From contig CAIJMU010000155.1 in the NCBI GenBank assembly GCA_903821875.1, positions 1-64,000 of the forward strand: a stretch of 64,000 nt of DNA, in the 5' to 3' direction. Both the position numbers and the translations under genes were made by a program. Below, piece after piece: positions 51,568-59,077 of this stretch (within the stretch, counting starts at the first letter, position 1; every line of letters starts with the position of its first letter). The notes below the pieces were generated by a model. That model was not told the DNA's origin and did not search any database. It saw only the letters and a list, made by a program, of their open reading frames with translations. The DNA is from an uncultured Spirochaetota bacterium (GTDB lineage Bacteria; Spirochaetota; Spirochaetia; Treponematales; Rectinemataceae).

Positions 51568-52212
51568 TCAGGCCGAGATCAGCCCCTTCCTGATGGCGTA
51601 GCGCGTCAGATCCACAGCCGTATGAATGCCCAGCTTGCGCATGATGTTGCGCCGGTGGACCTCCACTGTTCCGACCGCGATGTTGAGTCTGGCGGAGATC
51701 AGCGTCGAAGCCAGGCCTTGGGCCAGGAGTTTGAGAACCTCGAGCTCGCGTCGGCCAAGGATGCTGCTGGGGCTAAGTTCAGCCTTCCCCTCATCGCCTT
51801 GCCTTCGTACGAGGGCCTGCATGGCTTCGACACAGAGGAAATTCCGTCCGCCCGCCACCATCTGGATGGCTGTCAGCAGATCCTTGGTGCTCGCGGTCTT
51901 CACCAGGTAGCCCTGGGCCCCGGCCTTGAGCATCGCTTCCACAAAAAGGCGATCGGTGTGGGCAGTCAGAGCTATTATCTTAAGGTCGGGGAAAGACTGT
52001 CTGAGCTTCCGGGCAAGGTCGATTCCGTTGATATCCGGCAGGCTGATGTCCAGCAAAATGAGGTCGGGCTTCAATCGAGCGACTTCCCTGAGTGTTTCCT
52101 CGCCACAGCCTGCCTCGCCGACGATCTCGACCTGCCCGCTCTCCGAAAGGGATAGGCGCAACGACTCCCTGAACATCCTATGGTCGTCGGCAATCAGGAT
52201 GCGGATACTCAT
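51568..52212 (-). CDS. NarL/FixJ-family response regulator
   Basis: The 214-aa protein has a REC domain (RILIADDHRMFRESL, Asp in LILLDISLPDINGID, Lys in GYLVKTAS) and a LuxR-type HTH (LGRRELEVLKLLAQGLASTLISARLNIAVGTVEVHRRNIMRKL). It controls transcription when phosphorylated by the kinase encoded just upstream, whose stop it overlaps by 4 bp. The targets are unknown; the direct repeats beyond its 3' end may or may not be related. Confidence 0.93.
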   Translation of the reverse strand: MSIRILIADDHRMFRESLRLSLSESGQVEIVGEAGCGEETLREVARLKPDLILLDISLPDINGIDLARKLRQSFPDLKIIALTAHTDRLFVEAMLKAGAQGYLVKTASTKDLLTAIQMVAGGRNFLCVEAMQALVRRQGDEGKAELSPSSILGRRELEVLKLLAQGLASTLISARLNIAVGTVEVHRRNIMRKLGIHTAVDLTRYAIRKGLISA

Positions 52213-53534
52213 GCCGACGCCTGGTGCGCGGAAGGGCCGCAGGGAAGGGGCAACCGGAGCGTCACCAGAATCCCCGCCCCAGGTGTCGAAGTCATGCTCA
52301 TCGCCCCACCCATCTGGCTCAGGCGCTCGCGGATGCTCCGAAGGCCGTAACTGGCATTGCTCGGGGGGGGGTATTGTTCTGTATCGATCATACCAATACC
52401 TAGGTCATTTATGGAAATGTTGATCTGGGCCGGTTCTATCGAAAGTCCAAGCCAAGCTTCCAGTTTTCCTGAATGCTTGGCGACATTGATCAGCAATTCC
52501 CTCACCGATCTGAACAGGATGAGCGACAGCTCCTCAGGGAAGGAAGCAGGCATTTCCTCGCACTCAAGATGTACCCGAAGGCCGTACTCGCGCATGAGAT
52601 CCTCTGCAAGCCAGGAAAAAGCGGGTACCAGGCCGAAGGTGGCGAGCACTGGTGGGCTCAAACGGGATGTAACTGATCCCACCATTCTGATCGCCTCCCT
52701 GAGCAAATCGTCCAGGTCCTTGGCAAGGACCTGGCTCTTATTGTTAAAACCCTGGCTGTAGAGGCCTTCGGACTTGAGCAGGATTACATGGAGCAACTGC
52801 CCGATGCCGTCGTGCAGGTCGTGGGCTATGAGCTGGCGTTCCCGTTCTTCCGCACGCGTGACGGATATCGCCAGATTGCGGACCTCTGCAGTCCGGTTCA
52901 TTACCTGTGTTTCCAGGTCCTCTTTCAGGAATTTAAGGGCGAGCTCCGCACGTTTCCGTTGGTCGATATCGCTCAGGATGACGCGCTGAATTGGCTTTCC
53001 GGAAGCATCCTTGGCGAGGGTCGAGGAGATCTGTACCCAGAATCCTGTCCCGCCGGCCTTTTCCATGCAGATTTCGCAGGACTGAGGCAACCCCGTCTCA
53101 AACAGCTTTTTGTGGTGCATGTAGAATATTTCCCGATACTTGAGCCCAAGCTCGTCCTTGGCTATGGACTGGCTTAATACCCGACCTGCCAAGGTGCGCC
53201 TGTCCATGCCCAGTAGTGTTGCTGCCACCAGGTTGGCCTCGAGGATGAGGCCCTTCTCGCTCAGGGTGAGGTAGCACAGGGGGGCCTGGTCGTAGAGGTC
53301 GAAGTAGCGGACGAGCGAAATTTCGAGCGCTTCCTGGGAGCGACGGAGTTCCTCGTTCTGCATCTCGAGCTCGATCTGGTGGATCTGGAGCTCATGCAGG
53401 GTGAGGTCGGCGGGCGCCACCGATGCAAATCCAGGGCTCGCTGCTGGAGGCTCCTGCCCCAGTTTTTCCCGCAGCTCCTCCTCGGCGCGCCTTCGCAGCT
53501 CGGCCGTCTGGTCGGATAACCTGTCAGCGCTCAT
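52209..53534 (-). CDS. NarX/DegS-type sensor histidine kinase with PAS domain, soluble
   Basis: The 441-aa protein has no membrane segment. The N-terminus has a coiled-coil linker (ELQIHQIELEMQNEELRRSQEALEIS) and a PAS domain (YDQAPLCYLTLSEKGLILEANLVAATLLGMDRRTLAGR). HisKA_3 follows with phosphoacceptor His in LIAHDLHDGIGQLLH, then an HATPase domain (LRSIRERLSQMGGAM). It forms a pair with the NarL-type regulator downstream. The cytosolic PAS domain suggests an internal signal. Confidence 0.92.
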   Translation of the reverse strand: MSADRLSDQTAELRRRAEEELREKLGQEPPAASPGFASVAPADLTLHELQIHQIELEMQNEELRRSQEALEISLVRYFDLYDQAPLCYLTLSEKGLILEANLVAATLLGMDRRTLAGRVLSQSIAKDELGLKYREIFYMHHKKLFETGLPQSCEICMEKAGGTGFWVQISSTLAKDASGKPIQRVILSDIDQRKRAELALKFLKEDLETQVMNRTAEVRNLAISVTRAEERERQLIAHDLHDGIGQLLHVILLKSEGLYSQGFNNKSQVLAKDLDDLLREAIRMVGSVTSRLSPPVLATFGLVPAFSWLAEDLMREYGLRVHLECEEMPASFPEELSLILFRSVRELLINVAKHSGKLEAWLGLSIEPAQINISINDLGIGMIDTEQYPPPSNASYGLRSIRERLSQMGGAMSMTSTPGAGILVTLRLPLPCGPSAHQASA

Positions 53535-56915: not shown

Positions 56916-58988
56916 TCATTCGAGGCTCGCTGCAGAGATCCTGCCAATTTCCTGCATGATCCCGGCGAGGCGCTGGCTGATCTCCTCGAGGAGATCGAAA
57001 AAGCTGGAGTTTTCGCTCGAGATGTCCATGAGTCGGTCGAGGGCGCTGCGGATCTGTCCGGAACCTCCGGCGAGCTCCTCGATGCCTGAGGCTAGTTCCT
57101 GGGTACTCTGACCAACTTCCTGGAATTGCGAGATCAGGGCCTGAAGGCTGATCGCTGTTTCCTTGGATACGGAACTCGTCTTGGCTATCTCCTGGGACAC
57201 CGAGGAAAGGTCACGGGAAATGGCTGAGGCATGCTCGCCTGTCTTGAAGGCCAGCTTCCTGATCTCGTCGGCGACGACGGCAAAACCCCTGCCAGACTGT
57301 CCGGCGTGGGCAGCCTCGATGGCAGCGTTCATGGCCAAAAGGTTGGTGTTCTGCGCCAGGTCGTCAATGGCCTGGTTGAAGCCTGCAACCTTGCCGACCC
57401 CGACAACGACGCGATCGATGCCTGAAAAGGCGTTCTTCACGAGGTCTGCATCACGACCAGACTGGACTACGAGCTTCGAGATGAACTCCCGCTGCCTGCC
57501 AGCGAGATTGCCGATCGAAGCAAGGGTCGAGAGCATCTGCACGATGGCCGCCGAGGATTGCGAAATGGCGCTCCCCTGCTCATGGAGGTTGGCCTTGGCG
57601 CTACCTACCCTGGCAACCATGCCATCGAGGACGGATCGCGAATCGGTGATCCGGTCGTGAAGTTTGGCGGAAACCTCGCTGGCGCTCAGCTTCGCCGCTG
57701 CCATCATGGTCGTCTTGTAGTGGTGGCAGTTCTCAGGCTTGTTGAGTCCATTGTGGATGGCGACAGCCATCCACTCGCAGCTGTCGTAGCCGCAGGAAGC
57801 ACAGTTGAGGAAATCCCGCTTGTCGTTTTTAAGCATGCGCTTGTAGATGGTCTCGAGCTCGGAATTCGAGGGCCTGCGGATGAGCGCGCTGCCTGAGAGG
57901 TTTTTATAGTCACGGCCATAGATGCCGGGCTTCCAGAAAGGCGCGAGCCGCCTGGCCACAACCTTGGATGCCTTGGCGCGCTTGCCAAGCACTCCAGCCT
58001 TCAGCATCATCGCCTTGGAGCGCGCTGCCACCGCTCCCTCGAGGTCATCGACCAGTGCCTCGCGCTGATGTGTCCCGGTTCCGCCGTTGCAACCGCGCTC
58101 GCAGGACAGGCAATCCAGGATGGCTATGCCGCGCGGCATGGTCTTTCTTAAAGCCAGCTGGTCGAGATAGGGATAGATCGTCGCGGGACCTTCGATCTTC
58201 CTGATGGAATCCTCAAGGCCGGGGACATCGCGGGCGACCGTCGCCTTCAGCCCGCCAGGGGTCGAGAACAGGACAGCGCGTTCGGCATCGGGATTGTCAA
58301 AGGGGACTTCGGGGAATTCCTCAAGACGCTTCTTGTTCTCCCTCATCCATTTTTCGATCGAGAGGAAGGTGAGATTCAAGGCGCCGGAATTGGTCGCTGC
58401 AAACTCACGGCGCTTGGCGATGCAGGGAGAGACGACGACAATCCGTTGCTTCGCGAACTCGGGCCGAAACTCGCGGATCATCCTGATGGCGTGCATCATC
58501 GGGCTATGGGCAGGCGCGAGCCTGGAAAGGAGCTCTGGCTTCCATATCTCGATGTAGGAAACAAGGGAGGGACAGGGCTGGGCGATGATAAGGTCGGGTT
58601 TCGCAGCCTTGTAGTACTCGATATAGCTCTTTACGGTCAGTTCGGCACCGAAGGACACATCGAAGGCAGCCTCTATGCCCAGGCTCTTCATGAGGCCGTT
58701 GAGCCGCTCGATGGAGGGGAAACTCGCCGCTGCCGAGGGCGCGACAACCGATACAAACCGCTCACCCTTTTTCGAGGCAGCGATGAACTCGTCCCAGTCA
58801 TCGACATAGACGCGGGCATCGTGGGAGCAGGCATCGATACAATTGCCACAACCTATGCAGAGATCATGGTTGATCGTGACAGTTTCGCCAGACGCGTCTT
58901 GACAGTACTTTACGGGACAGACCGCAATGCACTGATGACATGCGACACATTTATCCTTAATGACTTCTACGACAGGCACGAGCGCCAT
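56916..58988 (-). CDS. Soluble chemoreceptor with [FeFe]-hydrogenase-like sensory domain
   Basis: The 690-aa protein has no membrane helix. Order: two [4Fe-4S] ferredoxin motifs ([27 protein letters not shown]; residues 13-60), a hydrogenase large-subunit-like domain (about 80-370), another Cys-rich motif ([13 protein letters not shown], about 400), then a cytoplasmic MCP signalling domain (about 450-690) with the hairpin tip [28 protein letters not shown]-cluster ligand motifs are present in sensory form: [17 protein letters not shown] and [11 protein letters not shown]. The proton-transfer Cys that precedes the ligand Cys in catalytic enzymes (TSCCP) is Pro. It is probably a redox or H2 sensor feeding chemotaxis; no hydrogenase or che genes are nearby. 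Confidence 0.9.
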
Positions 58989-59048
58989 ACACCCCCCACA
59001 GCATCCTTACCGGACGATGGCACAATCCATCGAATACGACAGTAAGGA

Positions 59049-59077
59049 ATTATAGGGGTGCCCGCAGCCATTTGCAA
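59049..59077 (-). promoter_or_regulatory. Sigma-70 promoter for the hydrogenase-like chemoreceptor
   Basis: On the minus strand TTGCAA, a 17-bp spacer and a perfect TATAAT, about 60 bp upstream of the start at 58988. The gene is therefore expressed as its own unit. Confidence 0.7.

Follow-up and report, generated by a model that had tools for sequence, protein, structure and literature searches.

A soluble Spirochaetota chemoreceptor with a putatively sensory [FeFe]-hydrogenase-type domain

A gene on the minus strand of the window (the whole 64,000-nucleotide stretch analyzed here, from an uncultured Spirochaetota bacterium) raises the question of whether an [FeFe]-hydrogenase-type domain can serve as the sensor of a chemoreceptor and, if so, what it senses. 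The gene (56916..58988) starts with ATG at position 58988 and encodes a 690 aa protein in an uninterrupted frame. A preliminary description had proposed that ferredoxin clusters, a domain of the H-cluster type (H-domain) and the output domain of a methyl-accepting chemotaxis protein (MCP) are joined here in a single soluble polypeptide, coupling H2 or redox state to motility. The features considered below are the following:

59049..59077, minus strand: sigma-70-like promoter, TTGCAA-17 nt-TATAAT (consensus match only)
56916..58988, minus strand: H-domain/MCP chemoreceptor gene (open reading frame and domain search)
58815..58961, minus strand: two [4Fe-4S] ferredoxin motifs, residues 10-58 (C14, C17, C20, C24 and C44, C47, C50, C54, invariant in 30 orthologues)
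58080..58757, minus strand: [FeFe]-hydrogenase-type H-domain, PF02906, residues 78-303 (Pfam, Foldseek)
58566..58583, minus strand: L1 motif AQPCPS, with Q137, P138 (relay Cys position) and ligand C139 (alignment)
58413..58430, minus strand: L2 motif SPCIAK, with S187 (M353 position), ligand C189 and K192 (K358 position) (alignment)
58080..58115, minus strand: L3 motif, from residue 292, with an extra invariant C293, L294 (M497 position) and ligands C296 and C300 (alignment)
57726..57803, minus strand: C-terminal Fe-S motif Cx2Cx4Cx16C, with C396, C399, C404 and C421 (Pfam, alignment)
56922..57725, minus strand: MCP signaling hairpin, helix 422-561, tip and helix 563-689 (Pfam, AlphaFold2)
57249..57338, minus strand: hairpin tip region (alignment)

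The proposed architecture is borne out by domain searches. Pfam identifies a pair of Fer4 domains, Fe_hyd_lg_C (PF02906, residues 78-303, 1.8e-25), FeS (PF04060, residues 394-422) and MCPsignal (PF00015, residues 515-655, 1.6e-24), and the highest 19-residue Kyte-Doolittle mean is 1.2, with no transmembrane segment, which predicts a soluble MCP of the cytosolic type. Several NCBIfam models for FeFe and MCP proteins also match, but none of the 25 best matches listed reaches its curated cut-off, and the protein therefore receives no curated subfamily name. Structure prediction, which had been suggested earlier as a check, returned a hydrogenase fold: the AlphaFold2 model, built with a 30-row orthologue alignment, has a mean pLDDT of 85 (mostly 85-96 in the sensor), and the top PDB matches listed by Foldseek are the [FeFe]-hydrogenases CbA5H, DdHydAB and CpI, with E-values down to 3.7e-16. 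The model also contains two long helices (422-561 and 563-689), the first of which, 140 residues in length, begins right after C421, the last ligand of the FeS motif, and therefore positions this motif where it could mechanically couple the sensor directly to the output. Chance or misread domains are ruled out by the E-values, the conservation and the fold.

The gene is flanked by a convergent rsgA and by a gene for an M3-family oligoendopeptidase. Upstream, TTGCAA-17-TATAAT (59077-59049, minus strand) matches 10 of 12 consensus positions, with 0.6 promoter-like sites expected from shuffles of the region; the promoter announced in the preliminary description thus holds as a consensus match, and the term "strong" goes beyond such a match. 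Its outer edge at 59077 accounts for the end coordinate given in that description. The receptor is the only PF02906 match on its 87.7-kb contig, in agreement with the reported lack of hydrogenase neighbors, and three further PF02906 proteins are encoded elsewhere in the genome. Two of these, both group A-like (L026/L088, 710 aa, and L089, 626 aa, on contigs C44 and C144), read TSCSPGW, with Ser at the position of the CpI ligand Cys300, and the third group A-like protein (L090) reads TTCCPAW. Elsewhere in the window lie a class I lysyl-tRNA synthetase gene (PF01921; 53657-55324, plus strand) and a PAS-HisKA_3 kinase gene adjoining one for a LuxR-type response regulator (51568-53534, minus strand).

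The active-site positions were assigned by aligning the receptor with group A-like hydrogenases of its own phylum. All four H-cluster Cys are retained, as had been claimed (C139, C189, C296 and C300), and K192 occupies the K358 position; together with the fold, these residues agree with membership of the [FeFe]-hydrogenase superfamily. The Pro described at the position of the TSCCP proton-relay Cys is likewise found (P138, in AQPCPS), and the M353 and M497 positions are occupied by S187 and L294. All three residues that mark a catalytic [FeFe]-hydrogenase of group A are thereby replaced. Pocket residues that would hold a diiron site are conserved (P84, P163, K192, G245-G246 and the bridging C300). 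Two further residues, Q137 and C293, the latter a Cys beyond the four ligands (in D-C-L-[NS]-C), are missing from the group A motif and invariant in 30 of 30 orthologues, and either may substitute for the lost proton relay. The positions of Glu252 and Glu289 of the sensory hydrogenase TamHydS, whose sequence context was read from mutagenesis primers (PMC10407848), are occupied by L247 (in 30 of 30 rows) and D292.

Of 296 genomes surveyed in the phylum, about 50 carry the full-length fusion, with 36-44% identity over the whole length, and a genome of the same genus carries an orthologue at 73% identity. This orthologue, together with the open frame, rules out a pseudogene in this window. Elsewhere, receptor copies that are split or contain an in-frame stop were seen in G119:C56, G120:C51, G300:C21 and G036:C1, as a result of decay, recoding or an error in assembly. 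Each of the 30 aligned orthologues has the H-domain, Fer4 and MCP domains, with every cluster Cys invariant. Compared with the other orthologues, the mean identity of the receptor is 0.57 in the F-domain, 0.51 in the H-domain, 0.69 in the FeS region, 0.25 in the MCP part as a whole and 0.60 in its tip; the sensor part is thus more conserved than the MCP arms. In known MCPs, the hairpin tip is the part that contacts CheA and CheW. Here it is 96% identical to that of the same-genus orthologue and 60% identical on average to those of the others, and is of the ordinary CheA/CheW-binding MCP type. One consensus-like methylation site is found, at residue 633.

Phylogenetic inference on H-domains assigns the receptor to a sensor clade comprising 49 rows (SH-aLRT 100). 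Groups A and B lie outside this clade, as does a second sensor clade, whose L2 motifs are of the FIGPC type. With regard to the sensory groups C and D, named in the preliminary description, this tree was built without named HydS references, and the residues give a mixed picture: the M353S and M497L replacements are those of TamHydS, and Glu252 is absent. Among other H-domain proteins, eleven group B-like ones (L160, L162, L164, L165, L167-L172 and L177) read TTSCCSAY, where Ser follows the ligand Cys in place of the usual Pro. In relatives of the sensor module (L102, L103, L108, L110 and L112), the fusion partner is a HATPase kinase, a hybrid kinase of the HisKA-receiver type or GGDEF-EAL, and sensors linking H2 or redox state to c-di-GMP are possible among them. 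Such swapping of outputs among signaling domains is as would be expected of a portable sensor.

Chemotaxis proteins encoded in the genome of the receptor comprise CheA proteins, which have Hpt, ATPase and CheW domains, as well as CheR and an ordinary HAMP-containing MCP; CheW domains give 15 matches. There is good support for a sensory H-domain, non-catalytic and wired to chemotaxis: the fusion is found in 30 of 30 orthologues, outputs are swapped among signaling domains, the relay Cys is replaced by Pro, and CheA, CheW and CheR are encoded in the genome. This part of the earlier proposal stands; H2 as the ligand is only inferred. The protein most likely acts on CheA as a soluble receptor that detects H2, or redox state via its H-domain. 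Within this description, we consider it probable that it represents the "chemotactic sensory [FeFe]-hydrogenase" kind of cytosolic chemoreceptor and responds to H2. A catalytically crippled H-domain would carry an H-cluster, be fed by the two ferredoxin clusters and respond to H2; a redox or conformational change would then reach the MCP hairpin by way of the C-terminal Fe-S motif, the last Cys of which, C421, directly precedes the hairpin. The kinase activity of CheA would change as a result and swimming would be biased, in a direction that we would likewise only infer. H2 is a plausible signal. Both TamHydS and TmHydS have a working H-cluster despite altered C299, M353 and M497 positions (PMC8163306, PMC10055695), and exposure of TamHydS to H2 changes its secondary structure without reduction of the C-terminal cluster (PMC13104023), as would suit a relay into the MCP helix by conformation and not by electron transfer. 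Among sensory HydS sequences, about 10% have Pro at the relay position and about 32% have Ser at the M353 position (PMC10055695). Against the H2 reading stand the replacement of Glu252 by Leu and of Glu289 by Asp, and, among the maturases HydE, HydF and HydG, those that were not found in this genome or in other fusion genomes.

The preliminary description had asked whether these maturases are encoded elsewhere in the genome. In this assembly of 193 contigs, 97% complete, HydF occurs with its dimerization and tetramerization domains, but family models did not find HydE or HydG, and a search for HydG with the protein from the same genus did not find it either. The genome of the same genus contains all three genes in a row (hydG-hydE-hydF). 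To our knowledge HydF has no other role, and an assembly gap is for this reason the likeliest explanation for the missing HydE and HydG. No conserved operon partner of the receptor gene was found apart from the hyd maturase genes in two genomes, with the gene orders hydE - MCP receptor - hydG - hydF (G264) and MCP receptor - hydE - hydG - hydF (G320), which provide the best genomic link between the receptor and a diiron site. Also in favor of the H2 reading, HydG, tallied by hand across the 296 genomes, is present in 32 of 52 genomes with the fusion versus 62 of 244 without it (Fisher p 1e-6, uncorrected for kinship), and the association is weak within the large genus g25.

The same survey lends weight to the strongest alternative, a redox (energy-taxis) receptor containing only [4Fe-4S] clusters, with one cubane at the H-cluster site, that would report cytoplasmic ferredoxin or redox potential, or O2 damage, instead of H2. 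HydG is missing from 20 of the 52 fusion genomes, and HydF was above the cut-off in 0 of the 16 of these that were newly checked. HydG status changes seven times on the receptor tree, yet the four Cys, K192 and the pocket residues are equally conserved in HydG-negative and HydG-positive receptors. Fusion genomes without HydG but with unrelaxed cluster residues make the [4Fe-4S]-only receptor a serious rival, to which the failure to find HydE and HydG in the genome studied here also adds. On the other hand, P84, P163, K192, G245-G246 and the bridging C300 are conserved beyond the needs of a cubane, the receptor gene is linked to hydE, hydG and hydF in two genomes, and HydF is present in its own genome. 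For the receptor described here we regard the redox reading as possible but somewhat doubtful. Lineages without HydE, HydF and HydG may, in a similarly tentative reading, have live receptors whose H-domain holds only [4Fe-4S] clusters (or an H-cluster obtained by an unknown route) and senses redox state; if so, such receptors would form a class that uses a hydrogenase scaffold for chemoreception and is uncoupled from H-cluster maturation.

HydG-negative fusion genomes also keep other H-domain proteins, of group A or group B. More generally, 38 of the 39 nearest genomes (most of G002-G038, same family and order) encode H-domain proteins, and only 10-12 encode HydE, HydF or HydG above the cut-off. 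In two single-contig genomes, G026 and G029, H-domain proteins are present and none of the three maturases is above the cut-off.

Whatever the signal, the output might also be directed elsewhere. The 15 CheW-domain matches and several CheA-like proteins indicate that several pathways exist in this genome, and the receptor could feed a non-flagellar Che-like pathway instead of the main chemotaxis array. The hairpin tip is however of the ordinary MCP type and the gene neighborhood gives no sign of a dedicated pathway, making this destination unlikely. A slow hydrogenase tethered to the chemoreceptor array, with H2 turnover as its main role, would account for the H-cluster ligands and ferredoxin clusters, but is highly improbable in view of the Pro at the relay Cys position, the changed M353 and M497 positions, the three other group A-like H-domain proteins already in the genome and outputs that swap among signaling domains only.

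The preferred reading, a chemoreceptor responding to H2, bears on a wider problem, since sensory [FeFe]-hydrogenases are still termed "putative" for want of direct evidence leading from H2 binding to output. Direct fusion to an MCP provides a built-in, measurable read-out (CheA activity, swimming), and the many fusion lineages with or without HydEFG constitute a natural test of the need for the diiron site in sensing.

In 2012, Ballor, Paulsen and Leadbetter reportedly proposed that hydrogen sensors in termite-gut treponemes are connected with methylation pathways and with chemotaxis; these are also H-domain sensor proteins in treponemes, from a different organism. The kind of receptor described here is already known: HydDB named [FeFe] group C2 "Chemotactic (putative)" in 2016 (PMC5037454). 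The receptor shares with this group, to which it is matched by definition only, a sensory H-domain coupled to methyl-accepting chemotaxis, with PF02906 and PF00015 in one polypeptide. In the literature searched, we found no test of the chemotactic sensory hydrogenase class, no experiment on such an MCP fusion, and no description of a receptor gene within a hyd maturation locus (as in the two genomes above) or of its repeated persistence without HydF and HydG. In one study (PMC9431212), C2 candidates from Clostridium acetogens did not pass hydrogenase checks, whereas the receptor described here keeps all H-cluster ligands. TamHydS (group D / M2e; PMC8163306, PMC10407848, PMC13104023) resembles the receptor in the loss of the relay Cys, the replacement of M353 by Ser and of M497 by Leu, the two N-terminal clusters and the C-terminal Cx2Cx4Cx16C motif. 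The receptor differs from it in its MCP output, in having Pro where TamHydS has Ala (C299 position), Leu for Glu252, Asp for Glu289 and Asn for Asp next to a Cys of the C-terminal cluster, and in the extra invariant C293. It thus has the group D features represented by S187, the lost relay Cys and C396/C399/C404/C421 but lacks the Glu252/Glu289 proton path, and strict membership of group D is ruled out by the Leu at the Glu252 position. Membership of PAS-linked group C is likewise ruled out, with no PAS match in Pfam and an MCP helix running from residue 422. TmHydS (group C / M2f; PMC10055695) shares with the receptor a sensory H-domain, a C-terminal cluster and the loss of the relay Cys, but contains a PAS domain, with Gly at the M353 position and Ser at the M497 position, where the receptor has Ser and Leu and is fused directly to an MCP.
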